Origin: Loxodes magnus
Lineage: Eukaryota > Ciliophora > Karyorelictea > Loxodida > Loxodidae
Length of the DNA: 64,000 nt
Direction: 5' to 3'
Assembly (NCBI GenBank): GCA_946699065.1
Contig: CAMPDV010000018.1
Span: 1,426,001-1,490,000, forward strand
Shown: one piece after another, positions 9,267 to 47,027 of the stretch
How the letters are laid out: each line of letters opens with the position of its first letter
How positions within the stretch are numbered: position 1 is the first letter of the stretch
Made by a program: the position numbers and the translations under genes
Notes under the pieces: generated by a model
What the model was told of the DNA's origin: nothing
What the model saw: only the letters and a program-made list of their open reading frames with translations
Databases searched by the model: none

Positions 9267-11858
9267 ATGAAGAGATAAGCGACTGCTAGTTTAATCATTC
9301 TTGGTATGATTTTCTGTTGTGTGTTTACGATCTACTTTGTATCTATGATATGAAAGGTATCGCCTAAGTCTGATACGAATAGACAAGAAAACTCTTTTCT
9401 AGTTTAAGATTTTTAGTAGAAAACCTTAAATGAAGAGTTAGATTCTTCTAAGAGCTAAAATTAAAATGGGAGTGAGTTGGGGATTATATTTGGTAGCTTA
9501 GAGTACAACCAAAAGGATAAACTTCCTTAGTATGGTTTGTTCTAGAAGTGTAATTGAACTAATTAATGGGGATTTTGGGAAACTTTTTTTGTACCCGTTC
9601 CTTTGAAGAAGATAAAGATAGAGTCTTCTTTGTTTTCTACTCTATTAACCTCTTAAATATAGTAGACCTATGCTAATGTTGAGAGAGTCCCTGTAGAGAT
9701 ATAATATGTTTTCCCTGTTGACTCTGAATCTGTCATCTATAATCTTACCATTCAAACTTCTGATAATAAAACGATTGTAGGAGAGATTATGGAAAATGAA
9801 AAAGCTAAAGAAGCATATGACAAAGCGATAAAGGAAGGAAATACTGCTTACATGGCCTATTATGACACTGACAAAGCTTAAGATAAGGTTGTCCTTATGA
9901 TCGGTAATTTACAACCTGAAATAACTGTCACTGTTGTTTTTACAGTTTCAACATAAGTAAAACCCTCTTTGACAGGAGATTGGAGAATTATCATCCCAGC
10001 TGCGTTAACTCCTAAATTTCCAACTGAATTAGCACATAATTAAGCAAAAAAGTACAATTTAACTTCTGCGACATACTTCAACGTAATGAGAAAAGTTCCT
10101 TATAGCATTGACTTTACTCTTAATATCACAAGCTTGAGTCCTTTAAAAAATATAAGAAGCTCTACACACGAAATAGTTTACACTCCTTAAGGAGATAAAG
10201 GAGCTTTTATAAGTCTAAACTCTTTAAAAGCATATTAGCCAGATAGAGACATGATCATTCTCTTCTAGAACGAAGATTAAAATAAGCCAAGAGTAATATT
10301 GGGAAAAGAGAGTTCTTTCTATTCGCTAATACTGTCTTTCTATCCATCAATCGCTTCAAATAGCAATATTTTATAAGAATTCATTCTGATTCTTGATAGA
10401 AGTGGAAGCATGTAAGGGTAGAGAATAGAGTTAGCAAAAAAAACTTGCATTTTGTTTGTGTAAAGCATTCCTCTTGGAAGCTATTTTAACATTATTAGCT
10501 TTGGTAGTACTTATTAAAAAGTATGGGATAGAAGTGTTTTGTATGGAGACTAAACTTAAAAACATGCAATAGAGCAAATTCAAGGATTTTAAGCAGATTT
10601 AGGAGGAACTGAAATCTTGTAGCCTTTATAGGAAATCTATTCATGGGGTATTGGAGAAGTACCTAAAACCATCTTTTTGATTACTGATGGCGCAGTTTCA
10701 AACCCTGATGCAGTAGTTTAATTAATTGCGCAGAACTAAGAATTAATGGGAATTAGAGTGCATGCTTTTGGAATAGGAGCAGGTGTTAGTACTTATTTAA
10801 TAAATAGCGCAGCAGAAGCAGGAAAAGGAACTGCTAATTTCGTATAGGAAAATGAGCCAGTAGATGATAAAGTAGTACAGGCTATGGAAATAGCTCTACA
10901 ACCTTACTTAACTAACTTTAATATTACATGGAACATTCAAACTTAAACAAACTAATCAGTCGAAAATTCCAAGCTAATCTAAGCGCCTAAATTCATAAAA
11001 TATTTACTTAACTAAGAAATAGCGTTTATTTACGGTCTGATAATGGATAATTCTTTTGATAAAGGTTGCATATCAATCTCATTTATGTAAGGGAAATTAT
11101 AGCAAACTTTTACTAGTGAGGTAACCTAATAGTAAGCTATAGATGCCCCTGACATATCCAAATTAACGGCAAGAAGCTTAATAAGAGAATTAGAGAAAAA
11201 TGTGACGTAAAACAGAGAAATGATAATATATCTCTCCACTAAATTCAATATTCTTTCATCCCTTACTTCATTCATAGCTGTGTAAGAAGTTTATGATTCT
11301 GTAAATTAAACTATGGTAAGAAGGAATATTCCTATTTCTGCTACTTATGATTATGGCAATTAAGAAAGTATGTTGGGTTCGAAATAATAGAATTTTGGAG
11401 GAAAGGGATAATAATATTCACCTGCTTCCGCATCAGGAATGGGAATGACGATGAACAACTTTGCTGATACTTCAAATTCTTATAATTCAGCCTCTAATTC
11501 AACTTAATAAAAGGGTTAATAGAACAACTAAGAATACATGATTTTGGTATAATTATAATAGGCAGATGGATCATTTTTACTTAATTAAGAATTAGCTTCT
11601 GCTCTAGAAATATAATTAACTACTTTATTTTAAGAAATTCCCCAGTTATTAAGTTCGAGATCTAATAAGAATGTTATCTGGGCTACTACTTTAGCACTTG
11701 CTCAGTTAGAAGCTAAATACTCTGATAAAGAATCTTCTTGGAAACTTGTGGCAAGGAAAGGATCAAGCTGGCTTGATAACAATGGTTTGAGTAGCGATGA
11801 ACTCAAACAGATTAAGGATTCAGCAAAGAGCATACTTAGTAATCACAAACGTAGCTGA
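9267..11858 (+). CDS. VIT and VWA domain protein (ITIH/VWA5-like)
   Basis: An 863-residue protein with an N-terminal membrane anchor or signal (SLIILGMIFCCVFTIYFV). A VIT domain follows at about residues 120-260 (YVFPVDSESVIYNL, EKAKEAYDKAIKEG, FTVSTQVKPSL), then a VWA domain with the MIDAS motif DRSGSM starting at Asp377 and downstream FLITDGAVSN and VHAFGIGAGV. A Ser/Gln/Gly-rich linker precedes a C-terminal helical domain (IWATTLALAQLEAKYS, SWLDNNGLSSDELKQ) of the kind found in VWA5A-type proteins. It probably mediates adhesion or protein-protein interaction at the surface or in the secretory path. Its last ~66 codons lie inside inverted repeat arm A and are copied at 46.4 kb. Confidence 0.9.
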
Positions 11859-12425
11859 GTATAAACATCTTAATTACAACTTTTTCTGAAAAATATCTAA
11901 TTTCTTAAATATAATTTAAACAACACATATTAAGTATCTGTCCTCAATTAGCTTAAACTTAGTAATATCTTTAAGATCTAACAATTAGATAGAAAAAACA
12001 TTTCAATAATGTTTCTAGGGAACTATAAGTATTGGCTAAAAAGTAGTTATTTAAGTATATATTAATTTAGATATTTTTACACAAAGAAGAGTTGCTATTA
12101 AATTTAAATAAATAACCTGGAAATATAAGAATTAATATAAGATTATAGCAATTTAAGAATATTGAGTATTAATTTAAGCTATCTAGTATCTAATTCTCTG
12201 TCTATGATAGATTAAACAAGTATATAAGTATATATATTTAAGCTAAATATAAGGATTTTGTAATTAGATTTAAAGAAACTTTCTCTCTTTTTTCTTATTT
12301 TTATTATTGCTTCTGTGTATTAATCTAATAAGAAAGTAGTTTGACATACATATAGAACTAAGACTATGTATGAAAACTAAAGAACATAGTTAAAGGAGAG
12401 TTAGTACATAGCTTTAGAAATAGAA
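11859..12425. other. AT-rich intergenic stretch within arm A
   Basis: No coding frame seen. It is the 3' flank of the VIT/VWA gene and the upstream region of the small gene at 12426, and is retained in arm B (45778-46331). Confidence 0.45.
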
Positions 12426-12874
12426 ATGAAAGTAACTTTTAGATAAGTAAATGATTTGAATCGATATCTATAACTTTAGAGTAAATATATAGTATTTAAT
12501 AAATGAGAAGGTACTAAAGGATTAATTACATGCAGCAATCAAGTATTTTATATTCAAATAGCTTTGCAGGTATCTTTAAGATGAAAATTGAGTATCTTTT
12601 ATTAAGAGTATTAAACGAATTTATTAGACAAGCTAATAGACTATCAAAAATTCTTGTTTTGTAACTATAAATTTAGTTGGATCTGAAAATTTGCATATGA
12701 AAGTCTTCTAAAACTAACATTTTCTCCCTTATAGAATATCTTAATCTATTATCATATAGTAATATTAAGCAGTTTAAAGCTGTAAAACTAGGAGTATAGA
12801 AATATGATATATCAGTAGTTATTGGTAAACAACAGAAAATATTAATAGCATTAGATACTAAAATAAATAGTTGA
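12426..12874 (+). CDS. small two-exon gene, copy A, 141 aa
   Basis: Starts MKVTFRQVNDLNRYLQLQS. A 23-nt GT-AG intron (12570-12592) after CAG joins exon 1 to exon 2 (YLLLRVLNEFIRQANRLS), and TGA 12872-12874 stops 11 nt before the next ATG. Arm B holds the same structure, intron length and stop, with conservative changes, so it is a retained gene. The C-terminal part (KYDISVVIGKQQKILIALDTK) looks like alternating beta strands. The N-terminus loosely recalls sliding-clamp-like proteins such as HUS1, too weak to name. Function unknown. Confidence 0.6.
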
Positions 12875-12885
12875 TTTAGCAAAAA

Positions 12886-14491
12886 ATGTGAATTTATGTA
12901 AAAACTCCCATCTAAAGAATAATTAAATTAAATGTTAAGGCATGAAATACTATTGAGAGTGTTAAGGATTGAATATAAAACTCTGAAGGAATTCCTAAAG
13001 ATTAGTAAGAATTAACGTTTTCTGAAATCTAGCTAGAAGATAAAAAAACTCTGTTGTTGTATAATATTAAAAATGAAGCTCATTTGGTGCTACGATTTAA
13101 GTAAAAGCTTCTTGTGTAAAATAATAAAGATTAAACGTTTCTAAAGTGACTAAAAATACTTTCATAAGCATTGGATTATACTGATAAGAATAAGGATGTA
13201 GAGCTAAAGTTAGAACGATTAAATGTTATATAGCAAATTAACTAATTTATTTAAAATTCTAGCAATGCTCTGAAGTTTTGTGAGCCTCACTTGGATCTTA
13301 TATTTGATATGATTGAGAAAAATATTTTTAGACCTCTTAAATTAAAGAATATTGGAGTTGAAAAAATTGATGAGATTGGAGTGAATGAAGTAAGTATAGT
13401 TGTAGACTCCGAATGACCATACTTATAAGGTATATATGAGTTTTTTTTAAATCTGATAGGAAGCGAAAGTATAAGTGTCAAGACATTTAGAATCTTCATT
13501 ACTCATACTTTTATATGAGATCTACTTCAACTCTTCGATAGTGAAGAAGAATAAGAAAGATTTAATCTTTGAATAATACTTTAAAGAATATACGCTAAGA
13601 TAGTTCCTAGAAGAAAAATGATTAGAAGTGTTATTAATGATTAACTCTTGTCTGTTATTCATGAAAAAGGGCATTTTAATGGAGTATTTGAAATATTGTG
13701 TATTCTATCTAAAATTATATCTGGCTTTGCTATTCCTTTAAGAGAAGAACATGTTGTTTTCTTCAAAACTATAATAATTCCTTTGCATAAGGTATAAAAT
13801 AGTCACTTATATCATTAATCACTTAAATGTTGCACTGTGTCATTTATAACTAAAGACAATTCGTTAGCTATTCCTCTTTTGGAAGGTTTACTTAGATATT
13901 GGCCTTTTACAAATTCAAAAAAATAAATATTATTTCTGGAAGAGATTCTAGAAGTACTAAATGTCTGTGAAATTACTGGAATTAAGTCATTAATTCCTAA
14001 ATTATTCAAACTTCTGATGAAGTGCATTTCTGGACTTCATCATGAAGTAGCTGAAAAAGCATTGAAATTATTAGAGAATGATAAATTAATCTCAATTATA
14101 AAAGTTTATACAAGCACTATTTTCCCTTTAATAGTGCCTACTATATACTAATTAGCTAACTCACATGAAAGTCTAACTTTTAAGTAATCTCTTAATGCTA
14201 TTAAAGAGGCTCTTCATTAAATAAATCCAAATGCATTTGAAGAAGCTGTTAAGTCACAGTATAAGGAAGGGGTTATAAATAGCTATTATAATATGTATGC
14301 TTTACCTTAATACTAAATATCCACATTACGCTGGAATGACCTTTTCCAATAATTGCAGAAACAAGATCCAAATTTTGTACCTCCAAGTGGTAAGATTTTA
14401 TATAGTTCCTTATGTAGATACACATGTAGTAGGACTCTATAATATGAATGGAATGCAATTAAACAGTGCAAATCTTATTCCTCCAATTTGA
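12886..14491 (+). CDS. ubiquitin-like domain fused to PP2A B56 regulatory subunit, copy A
   Basis: A 529-residue protein. Residues 1-75 are a ubiquitin-like domain (MWIYVKT, EGIPKDQQELTF, QLEDKKTLLLYNI, HLVLRFK), with Ile where ubiquitin has Lys48 and no terminal Gly-Gly, so it is not a conjugatable ubiquitin. The rest is the B'/B56 family subunit that gives protein phosphatase 2A its substrate choice: MIEKNIFRPL, EWPYLQGIYEFFLNL, LLQLFDSEEE, ISGFAIPLREEHV, LLRYWPFTNSKK and TSTIFPLIVPTIY match family landmarks in order. The family Trp in WPYLQ is TGA here; seven Trp codons are TGA. A 16-nt intron (14390-14405) precedes the last exon, which ends NSANLIPPI-TGA. The Ubl may direct the phosphatase to ubiquitin-binding proteins or the proteasome (inference). 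Confidence 0.88.
14390..14405 (+). other. 16-nt intron in Ubl-B56 copy A
   Basis: gtaagattttatatag. Unspliced, the frame runs on without TGA to about 15009. Splicing gives a compact C-terminus and a TGA at 14489. The intron is present unchanged in copy B (43798-43813). Confidence 0.85.
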
Positions 14492-14721
14492 TTAAACTTA
14501 TAGTTTATTTATATACAATCAAACTAGCTTGTCATCAAGTCTTTAGTAATATCAAAATAACATTTCGTTTAAAATATCAAAATTATATTGAAAGTGGATA
14601 GTTAGCAACTACCTTTCTTACTCTCTATTGTTTAACGAAAACTATTAAAGATATATAATTTAGTATGTCTCACTAAGATAGAATTACTAGTATACATTAG
14701 AGGCTAATAGACTGTAAGGAT

Positions 14722-43325: not shown

Positions 43326-43711
43326 TTTGTTAGTTAAAGTTGTACATAATCTCAAAAGAGGTAGGAACTGGAGAAAGATAATAAAAAATTTATATAAAGC
43401 TGTAATTATCTCAGTAAATTTAACCAACACTAATTAATTAGGAAAGAGACTTATAAATATACTGAAATATATAATAGAGTCATCCTTACAGTCTATTAGC
43501 CTCTAATGTATACTAGTAATTCTATCTTAGTGAGACATACTAAATTATATATCTTTAATAGTTTTCGTTAAACAATAGAGAGTAAGAAAGGTAGTTGTTA
43601 ACTATCCACTTTCAATATAATTTTGATATTTTAAACGAAATGTTATTTTGATATTACTAAAGACTTGATGACAAGCTAGTTTGATTGTATATAAATAAAC
43701 TATAAGTTTAA

Positions 43712-45317
43712 TCAAATTGGAGGAATAAGATTTGCACTGTTTAATTGCATTCCATTCATATTATAGAGTCCTACTACTTGTTTATCTACATAAGGAACTA
43801 TATAAAATCTTACCACTTGGAGGTACAAAATTTGGATCTTGTTTCTGCAATTATTGGAAAAGGTCATTCCAGCGTAATGTGGATATTTAGTATTAAGGTA
43901 AAGCATACATATTATAATAGCTATTTATAACCCCTTCCTTATACTATGACTTAACAGCTTCTTCAAATGCATTTGGGTTTATTTAATGAAGAGCCTCTTT
44001 AATAGCATTAAGAGATTACTTAAAAGTTAGACTTTCATGTGAGTTAGCTAATTAGTATATAGTAGGCACTATTAAAGGGAAAATAGTGCTTGTATAAACT
44101 TTTATAATTGAGATTAATTTATCATTCTCTAATAATTTCAATGCTTTTTCAGCTACTTCATGATGAAGTCCAGAAATGCACTTCATCAGAAGTTTGAATA
44201 ATTTAGGAATTAATGACTCGATTCCGGTAATTTCACAGACATTTAGTACTTCTAGAATCTCTTCCAGAAATAATATTTCTTTTTTTGAATTTGTAAAAGG
44301 CCAATATCTAAGTAAACCTTCCAAAAGAGGAATAGCTAACGAATTGTCTTTAGTTATAAATGACACAGTGCAATATTTAAGTGATTAGTGATATAAGTGA
44401 CTATTTTATACCTTATGCAAAGGAATTATTATAGTCCTGAAGAAAACAACATGTTCTTCTCTTAAAGGAATAGCAAAGCCAGATATAATTTTAGATAGAA
44501 TACACAATATTTCATCTACTCCATTAAAATGCCCTTTTTCATGAATAGCAGATAAAAGTAAATCATTAATAACACTTCTAATCATTTTTCTTCTAGGAAC
44601 TATCTTAACGTACGTTCTTTAAAGGATATAATAAAGAATTAATCTTTCTTATTTTTCTTCACTATCGAAGAGTTGAAGTAGATCTCATATAAAAGTATGA
44701 GTAATGAAGATTTTTAATGTCTTGACACTTATACTTTCGCTTGCTATCAAATTTAAAAAAAACTCATATAAATCTTATAGGTATGGTCATTGGGAGTCTA
44801 CAACTATACTTACTTCATTCACTCCAATCTCATCAATTTTTTCAGCTCCAATATTCTTTAATTTAAGAGGTCTAAAAATATTTTTCTCAATCATATCAAA
44901 TATAAGATCCAAGTGAGGCTCACAAAACTATAGAACATTGCTAGAATTTTCAATAAATTAGTTAATTTGCTATATAACATTTAATCGTTCTAACTTTAGC
45001 TCTACATCCTTATTCTTATCAGTATAATCCAATGTTTAGGAAAGTATTTCTAGTCATTTTAAAAACTTTTAATCTTTATTATTTTACACAAGAAGCTTTT
45101 ACTTAAATAGTAGAACCAAGAGAGCTTCATTTTTAATATTATACCACGACAGAGTTTTTTCATCTTCTAGCTAGATTTCAGAAAACGTTAATTCTTACTA
45201 ATCTTTAGGAATTCCTTCAGAGTTTTATATTTAATCCTTAACACTCTCAATAGTATTTCATGCCTTAACATTTAATTTAATTATTCTTTAGATGGGAGTT
45301 TTTACATAAATTCACAT
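43712..45317 (-). CDS. ubiquitin-like/PP2A B56 fusion, copy B
   Basis: Same 529-residue length, same 16-nt intron (43798-43813) and same stop as copy A. The frame is intact throughout, with mostly conservative changes. Notable differences: in the Ubl part, a Trp TGA codon of copy A (KDWIQ) is TAA=Gln here (KDQIQ); LLLYNI is LSWYNI, nearer to ubiquitin's LSDYNI at Ser; and HLVLRF is LLVLLF. In the B56 part GVNEVSIVVDSEWPYL reads GVNEVSIVVDSQWPYL, retaining the TGA-encoded family Trp. Both copies therefore look functional, and the fusion predates the duplication. Confidence 0.87.
43798..43813 (-). other. 16-nt intron in Ubl-B56 copy B
   Basis: gtaagattttatatag on the minus strand, identical to the intron of copy A. 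Confidence 0.85.
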
Positions 45318-45328
45318 TTTTTGCTAAA

Positions 45329-45777
45329 TCAACTATTTACTTTAGTATCTAAAGCTACTAATGCTTTCTGTTGTTTACCAATAACTACTGATATATCATA
45401 TTTCTAGATTCCTAGTTTTACAGCTTTAAACTGCTTAATATTACTATATGATAATAGATTAAGATATTCTATAAGGGAGAAAATGTTAGTTTTAGAAGAC
45501 TTTCATATGCAAATTTTCAGATTCAACTAAATTTATAGTTACAAAACAAGAATTTTTGATAGTCTATTAACTTGTCTAATAAATTCGTTTAATACTCTTA
45601 ATAAAAGATACTCAATTTACATCTTAAAGATACCTGCAAAGCTATTTGAATATAAAATACTTGATTGCTGCATGTAATTAATCCTTTAGTACCTTCTCAT
45701 TTATTAAATACTATATATTTACTCTAAAGTTATAGATATCGATTCAAATCATTTACTTATCTAAAAGATAATTTCAT
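45329..45777 (-). CDS. small two-exon gene, copy B, 141 aa
   Basis: Counterpart of 12426-12874, with the same length, a 23-nt intron in the same place and the same stop. Replacements are conservative (MKVTFRQ to MKLSFRQ; KILIALDTKINS to KALVALDTKVNS; LGVQKYD to LGIQKYD), and a TGA-encoded Trp (NKWEGTKG) is kept. This pattern indicates selection on protein sequence. Function unknown. Confidence 0.6.
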
Positions 45778-46331
45778 TTCTATTTCTAAAGCTAAGTACT
45801 AACTCTCCTTTAACTATGTTCTTTAGTTTTCATACATAGTCTTAGTTCTATATGTATGTCAAACTATTTTCTTATTAGATTAAAACACAGAAGCAATAAT
45901 AAAAATAAGAAAAAAGAGAGAAAGTTTCTTTAAATCTAATTACACAATCCTTATATTTAGCATAAATATATATACTTATATACTTGTTTAATCTATCATA
46001 GAAAGAAATTAGATACTAGATAGCTTAAATTAATACTCAATACTCTTAAATTGCTATAATCTTATATTTCCAGGTTATTTATTTAAATTTAATAGCAACT
46101 CTTCTTTGTGTAAAAATATCTAAATTAATATATACTTAAATAACTACTTTTTAGCTAATACTTATAGTTCCCTAGAAACATTATTGAAATGTTTTCTCTA
46201 TCTAATTGTTAGATCTTAAAGATATTACTAAATTTAAGCTAATTGAGGACAGATACTTAATATGTGTTGTCTAAATTATATTTAAGAAATTAGATATTTT
46301 TCAGAAAAGGTTGTAGTTAAGATGTTTATAC

Positions 46332-47027
46332 TCAGCTACGTTTGTGATTACTAAGTATGTTCTTTGCTGAATCCTTAGTCTGTTTGAGTTCATCGCTACT
46401 CAAGCCATTGTTATCAAGCCAGCTTGATCCTTTCCTTGCCACAAGTTTCCAAGAGGATTCTTTATCAGAGTATTTAACTTCTAACTGAGTAAGTGCTAAA
46501 GTAGTAGCCCAGATAACATTCTTATTAGAACTAATCTCTTTTATAATAGCTCTTTAACTAGTTAAATATAAAATAGCTTAATTATTTGAATTAGCTACTA
46601 TTGTATGTATAACTTTAAACTTAAGCAATAGCTATCTATAGTTATTTAATATTAATATGAAAGTCTCCTAATTACATTTGCTAATAATAATTAAGCTATT
46701 TTATATAAATTTAACTTTACTTTGCTAAGAAATAGGATTTTGAATCTCTAGCCATTAAGTACAATATATAGTATCTCCAAAAGAGTTTATGCTTGAAGAT
46801 TGATCTTCTCAATCTAATATTTAGACAATTCCCAGCAACTTTCGCCTCTAATTTTCCAATGCAGATAATGTGATAGTTTGGATACCAATCTTCCATATCG
46901 AATTCTCATCTTCCTGGCCTGATTAAATAGACATGTCGCCTTGCGAAACAATCCAAAGGGCGCGATTAATAAAAATACTTAAGAAAGTATAATAGAAAAT
47001 TGGACAAATAGTAAAAAGTTTAATCAT
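46332..47027 (-). CDS. chimeric gene: signal-peptide exon fused to VIT/VWA C-terminus
   Basis: From ATG 47027 a 231-codon frame runs unbroken to the TGA that ends the copied VIT/VWA tail (46332-46334). Residues 1-~25 are a signal or anchor (MIKLFTICPIFYYTFLSIFI). Residues ~26-110 are unlike the VIT/VWA protein (WIVSQGDMSIQSGQEDENSI, WKIGIQTITLSALENQRRK) and G+C-richer, with clear G bias at codon position 1. The next ~55 residues are AT-rich and may be former non-coding sequence. From residue ~166 (SSNKNVIWATTLALTQLEVK) it is the duplicated VIT/VWA C-terminal domain. The join coincides with the outer boundary of inverted repeat arm B. Whether it is expressed cannot be told from sequence. Confidence 0.6.

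Follow-up and report, generated by a model that had tools for sequence, protein, structure and literature searches.

The macronuclear genome of Loxodes magnus encodes PP2A regulatory subunits of the B56 type that carry a ubiquitin-like domain (Ubl) at their N-terminus. One such gene was recognised in the window, the 64,000-nucleotide stretch of contig C18 analysed here (C18:1426001-1490000), and the same layout was found in four of the ten full-length B56 genes of the genome, which belong to three lineages. The parts of the window gene, referred to as copy 1 (c1), are as follows:

12886..14491, + strand: Ubl-B56 gene c1, 529 amino acids (reading frame with intron model, Pfam)
12886-14389, + strand: exon 1, 501 residues in a single frame under translation table 27
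12886..13104, + strand: Ubl, residues 1-73 (PF00240; PDB sequence matches)
13117..14268, + strand: B56 domain, residues 78-461 (PF01603; PDB sequence matches)
14390..14405, + strand: 16-bp intron GTAAGATTTTATATAG, predicted from its identical position in 10/10 full-length B56 genes
14406..14491, + strand: exon 2, conserved 28-residue C-terminal tail VPYVDTHVVGLYNMNGMQLNSANLIPPI and the stop codon TGA at 14489-14491

The Pfam analysis of the table-27 translation placed both domains of c1 in one frame. Residues 3-73 matched PF00240 'ubiquitin' (46.1 bits, E=4.2e-12; cut-off 25.4) and residues 78-461 matched PF01603 B56 (343 bits, E=2.8e-102; cut-off 25). The Ubl gave 308 matches to PDB sequences at E<=0.001, and the 60 listed of these were ubiquitin, its fusions and engineered variants, along with one 79-residue chain labelled Uba1. 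The B56 part had 14 PDB matches, every one a B56 chain (best E=1.6e-65). No PDB entry with both domains was present among the 60 listed of 319 matched (best stretch shown). The fusion of a Ubl to a B56 subunit, which an earlier note on this DNA had claimed, was thereby confirmed, as was its claim of ubiquitin likeness along the whole domain, with 39/73 aligned residues identical to human ubiquitin and PF00240 positions 1-71 of 72 covered. A chance match of the Ubl was also considered and ruled out by its E value of 4.2e-12 and by the recurrence of the layout in three lineages.

A second copy of the gene (c2) lies on the opposite strand of the window, within an inverted duplication of approximately 3.06 kb whose arms are 96.7% identical and approximately 29 kb apart:

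43712..45317, - strand: Ubl-B56 gene c2, 529 amino acids, intact frame, intron 43798-43813
45099..45317, - strand: Ubl of c2, 67/73 residues identical to the c1 Ubl
11661..14721, + strand: arm 1 of the duplication, comprising the entire Ubl-B56 gene, the intergenic stretch before it and the terminal part of the upstream gene
43482..46529, - strand: arm 2, matching arm 1

Both domains were also identified in c2 (PF00240, E=1.3e-14; PF01603, E=2.1e-101, 340 bits). The upstream neighbour of c1 (9789-11858, + strand) is a 689-residue frame, judged by eye to be of the von Willebrand factor A type, and the end of this gene is repeated beside c2.

The B56 profile search covered 705,730,643 bases in 7843 contigs and gave matches at 17 places, which were grouped into at least 13 loci (15 candidates scored; a lower bound), namely the ten full-length genes, two divergent loci on contig C413 and one fragment at C18:1415905. 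The earlier note had overlooked c2 and this wider family, which includes two more genes with a Ubl:

C18:1519311: Ubl-B56 gene L006 (PF00240, E=5.4e-13; PF01603, 401 bits)
C18:1393464: Ubl-B56 gene L001 (PF00240, E=3.2e-13; PF01603, 423 bits)

In each of c1, c2, L006 and L001 the match covered PF00240 profile positions 1-71 of 72. The PF01603 scores ranged from 340 to 423 bits in the six proteins scanned, and the B56 domain of L001 had the top score among those scored in the genome. All four Ubl-B56 genes are located within approximately 130 kb of contig C18, and approximately 170 kb of this contig contain six full-length B56 genes (L004, L001, c1, c2, L006 and L005) and the fragment. The fragment, found inside the cluster (L012, C18:1414500-1417600; 55 bits over 74 profile positions), is apparently a dead copy. 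The 16-bp intron is followed by the C-terminal tail at the identical position in 10/10 full-length genes, and the tail follows the consensus VPYxDxHVVGLNNMNGxxLxSANLIPPI in L001-L007, L009 and the window (14406-14491), with L007 deviating most. The front ends of the six Ubl-less full-length genes are of low complexity and rich in Gln, Ser, Thr and Lys. BLAST with the four Ubl queries detected no Ubl at E<0.1 in the upstream stretches searched for these six genes, the C413 loci and the fragment; L011 gave one 18-residue match at E=0.49. A scan of viral contigs with the L001 protein returned four stretches that fit a pattern, with no relative among them.

Translation followed NCBI table 27, with TAA and TAG read as Gln and TGA as Trp. 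PMC11441545 gives this table, in which UGA is Trp or stop, for the 706-Mbp Loxodes magnus macronuclear assembly, and gives introns with a mode of 17 bp and a mean of 19.3 bp, those below 16 bp being negligible. The c1 frame contains in-frame TGA at codons 2, 20, 29, 88, 177, 211 and 229, three of them among the first 73 codons. The earlier note had the Ubl running into the B56 domain with no stop or splice; no splice is indeed needed there, and the intron sits near the 3' end, but TGA has to be read as Trp for the frame to be open. This reading was supported for the genome by the occurrence of TGA at Trp positions conserved among paralogs, such as W177 of the WPxLQ motif in c1 and c2 and the Trp of THWHK in L003 and L004. 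With TGA as Trp, the c1 frame is also open upstream and includes an ATG some tens of codons 5' of 12886; the start was placed at 12886 because the ATG there coincides with Met1 of ubiquitin.

The Ubls were compared with ubiquitin and with one another outside the MAFFT alignment of the B56 proteins, in which the Ubls were misaligned. They share 34-39 identical residues with human ubiquitin over 73-75 aligned positions, and 26-28 of 72-74 with the Ubls of other lineages, so that each is closer to human ubiquitin than to its counterparts. The junctions to the B56 part read LRFKQK (c1), LLFKQK (c2), VLNLQEE (L006) and QLKQKQ (L001), and Gly-Gly is absent from the junction in 4/4 genes. The earlier note had correctly described c1 as lacking both Gly-Gly and Lys48, the latter being Ile48; L001, however, has Lys48. 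At Leu8, Ile44, His68 and Val70, which we take to define the Ile44 patch, the residues are P, T, H, V in c1 (from a gapped alignment), P, T, V, L in c2, F, A, S, V in L006 and Q, A, Q, Q in L001. His68 and Val70 are thus kept in c1 in the gapped alignment, and Val70 in L006, while Leu8 and Ile44 are changed in 4/4 Ubls, which is not the surface of a ligand for Ile44-patch receptors. The structure prediction that the earlier note had proposed for the Ubl was uninformative on the beta-grasp fold: the AlphaFold model of the Ubl alone, built from the two window sequences only, was all-helical at a pLDDT of 53. The equally uninformative whole-protein model (pLDDT 45; window sequences, two-sequence alignments) contained a strand-strand-helix succession at residues 2-6, 12-16 and 23-32 with a pLDDT under 50.

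These features bear on three other explanations of the layout. If the TGA codons of c1 (2, 20, 29, 88 and others) were not Trp they would stop translation, and the Ubl and B56 parts might then be two separate genes, or the protein might start downstream of the Ubl. The first in-frame ATG of c1 after Met1 is, however, residue 142, within the B56 domain, and c1, c2, L006 and L001 all have no in-frame ATG from Met1 of the Ubl to a point within the B56 domain. Moreover, before the intron the L001 frame contains no TGA and that of L006 only W485, the layout is identical in the four genes, and context-dependent UGA=Trp has been described for Loxodes (PMC11441545); we therefore reject this explanation as very unlikely. 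We likewise reject, as having next to no chance of being correct, a ubiquitin-fusion precursor from which ubiquitin is cleaved off as in ubiquitin-ribosomal protein fusions: the front position and the similarity to ubiquitin would suit it, yet it is contradicted by the missing Gly-Gly in all four genes and by the divergence of the domains to the 34-39 identical residues given above. The earlier note had proposed that the Ubl docks on ubiquitin receptors or the proteasome, which in that form is not supported, Leu8 and Ile44 being changed in all four Ubls. By analogy with UBLCP1, the Ubl might dock the holoenzyme on the proteasome, where the phosphatase would act on proteasome subunits or cargo. 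In UBLCP1, it is charged loop residues of the Ubl, and not the hydrophobic patch, that make the contact with Rpn1 (PMC3646893), which leaves room for such docking despite the altered patch. However, c1 has three derived residues in common with L006 and three with L001, against 1.62 and 1.33 expected for the two comparisons (p=0.207 and p=0.130), and this sharing at chance level reveals no common docking surface across the lineages. We found nothing in the c1, c2, L006 and L001 sequences that would point to the proteasome, and we consider docking of this kind improbable.

PP2A substrates are chosen by B56 subunits, in animals mostly through one short-motif pocket. The residues of this LxxIxE pocket were compared in B56gamma numbering (His187, Arg197, Glu226, Ile227, Ser230, Ile231, Lys240 and His243). 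In c1 and c2, H187Q, E226C, S230K and K240R were found together with T184I/Y beside them, and R197, I227, I231 and H243 were kept. L001 differs by E226D and K240R and L006 by E226G, I227M and K240R, the other residues, including His187 and Arg197, being kept in both; K240R is common to all ten full-length genes. In B56gamma, H187A abolished BubR1 binding (PMC4930772). The earlier note had regarded the B56 solenoid of c1 as complete; its length is right, but the LxxIxE pocket is changed and selection on c1 is possibly relaxed.

The c1/c2 pair comprises the most diverged and, as judged from the sequences, least conserved Ubl-B56 members. The two copies could be decaying or unconstrained duplicates. 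The fusion would then be genuine but drifting, and its Ubl would have no present role; in L001 and L006 the layout may be of importance all the same. For c1 against c2, dN/dS was 0.57 over the whole comparison and 0.78 for the Ubl (six nonsynonymous and two synonymous changes), and the gene, including its 16-bp intron, differs at 57/1606 sites, compared with 25/1014 in the upstream intergenic stretch. The pocket changes H187Q, E226C and S230K and the seven and five in-frame TGA codons of c1 and c2, versus 0-1 in the other eight full-length genes, agree with such decay, and the fragment at C18:1415905 is an example of a B56 copy that has decayed in this cluster. By contrast, dN/dS was 0.27 in the C-terminal half, no indel event occurred in the 1606 gene bases versus two in 1014 intergenic sites, the intron and tail were retained, and the c2 Ubl still matched PF00240 at E=1.3e-14. 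The divergence was in excess at synonymous sites as well (dS of 0.082 in the N half), and the 3' flank differs at 1/230 sites; homogenised flanks fit these two values equally as well as relaxed selection. Between the B56 bodies of other pairs, dN/dS indicated strong constraint (0.095, L001 vs L004) or moderate constraint (0.305, L006 vs L005).

The Ubls of c1, L006 and L001 were additionally compared with 2000 neutral runs, simulated without indels, in which one of the genome's own ubiquitin genes drifted to equal identity; a chosen set of core positions was scored. The core-hydrophobic score was reached by drift in 203/2000 runs for c1, 6/2000 for L006 and 19/2000 for L001, and the BLOSUM score in 1157/2000, 18/2000 and 571/2000 runs, respectively. 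The c1 Ubl is thus indistinguishable from neutral drift, as expected for a decaying duplicate. All 14 chosen core positions stay V, I, L, M or F in L006 and L001; few neutral runs reach their core scores, so the sequences support selection on the L006 Ubl and, the BLOSUM score of L001 being unremarkable, moderately support it on the L001 Ubl. No second copy of the L001 Ubl was present among the matches listed. We regard decay of the two window copies as a real though lesser possibility; for these two genes, an adaptor role of the Ubl is little more probable than relaxed selection or ongoing loss, and such decay is compatible with an adaptor role in the family as a whole.

The B56 bodies and the front ends of neighbouring genes have different degrees of similarity. 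In the comparison of L005 with L006, the B56 domain opens with two 30-codon blocks of 0.57 and 0.59 nucleotide identity; 12 of the next 14 blocks have 0.89-1.00, and the remaining two have 0.77 and, as the last block, 0.67. The step from 0.57-0.59 to 0.97 lies inside the B56 domain. L001 and L004 are alike from approximately 317 bases into L001. This mosaic suggests gene conversion of B56 bodies with distinct front modules. With the bodies kept alike by conversion and the fronts distinct, the isoforms would differ chiefly at their front ends. L006 and L001 share eight derived Ubl residues versus 3.19 expected (p=0.007). The tree of the whole B56 domain required three changes of the Ubl label, with 0% of 200 bootstrap trees requiring one, and the tree of the N-terminal third required two, with 3% of bootstrap trees requiring one; well-supported branches force just one change per tree. 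Because of gene conversion, the B56 trees are unreliable for the history of the Ubl, and both several origins, as the three changes on the B56-body tree would imply, and a single origin are possible.

Taken across the family, the sequences are best explained by clustered B56 subunits in which an N-terminal, non-cleavable Ubl most likely serves as an adaptor in cis, a reading that we regard as evenly poised. The Ubl would be derived from ubiquitin, having lost Gly-Gly and altered its Ile44 patch. If the proteins are expressed and folded, the B56 solenoid would join the PP2A core in a putative assembly with the A and C subunits, and the Ubl would add a second recognition surface through which the isoforms may differ in partner or location. 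Neighbouring B56 bodies would be homogenised by gene conversion, and the front modules, either a Ubl or, in paralogs, a Gln/Ser/Lys-rich tail, would stay distinct; the window pair may be on its way to a new specificity or to being lost. A bolder scheme, which we think unlikely, would have karyorelict PP2A use interchangeable fronts, with ubiquitin-derived domains recruited more than once onto gene-converted and almost identical B56 bodies, and would have the Ubl of the window lineage replace the LxxIxE pocket in substrate choice.

Under the adaptor reading, the Ubl would provide B56 with a second, genetically encoded targeting surface beside the short-motif pocket and would directly link phosphatase choice with ubiquitin-fold recognition. 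The cluster offers a natural comparison between genes that have a Ubl (L001 and L006) and genes that lack one but have a closely similar B56 body (L004 and L005, respectively), so the contribution of the Ubl is directly testable. Rad23, PLIC, parkin and USP14 likewise contain a non-conjugated Ubl within a larger protein. The proteins described here resemble such general Ubl proteins in this respect; however, hPLIC-2, hHR23a and parkin bind their partners through hydrophobic residues (PMC3646893), and here Leu8 and Ile44 are changed. They share the B56 domain with the PP2A B56 (B', PPP2R5) subunits, and L001 and L006 keep His187 and Arg197, but they differ in the N-terminal Ubl of 4/10 genes, the conserved C-terminal tail and the changed pocket of c1 and c2. 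UBLCP1 likewise combines a Ubl with a phosphatase and docks by means of it (PMC3646893), yet UBLCP1 belongs to the FCP/SCP family (PMC5451543), whereas the Ubl here is attached to a PP2A subunit that is not catalytic.

Lineage-specific ubiquitin fusions with unrelated partners, which can escape annotation, occur in algae (ubiquitin-actin, F-actin capping protein, NiSOD and others; PMC6332867); unlike these, the domain of the Ubl-B56 proteins is diverged and lacks Gly-Gly. The word phosphatase is absent from the main text of this algal survey, and the accessible part of a beta-grasp fold review (PMC1949818) has no occurrence of PP2A. No report of a Ubl-B56 protein was present among the papers listed by searches of the open part of PubMed Central, as judged from titles and abstract openings, in agreement with the earlier note, which knew of no PP2A regulatory subunit with a Ubl; as far as these searches reach, the architecture is undescribed and built from known parts. 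Many ubiquitin-coding repeats were also observed in the genome, on contigs C32, C537, C1577, C2553, C930 and C6377, with a spacing of approximately 1055-1061 bases on several contigs and approximately 833 bases on C6377. In two of these repeats (L022 and L017) the frame ends in ...LRLRG followed by TGA, which leaves a single Gly unless an intron adds the second.
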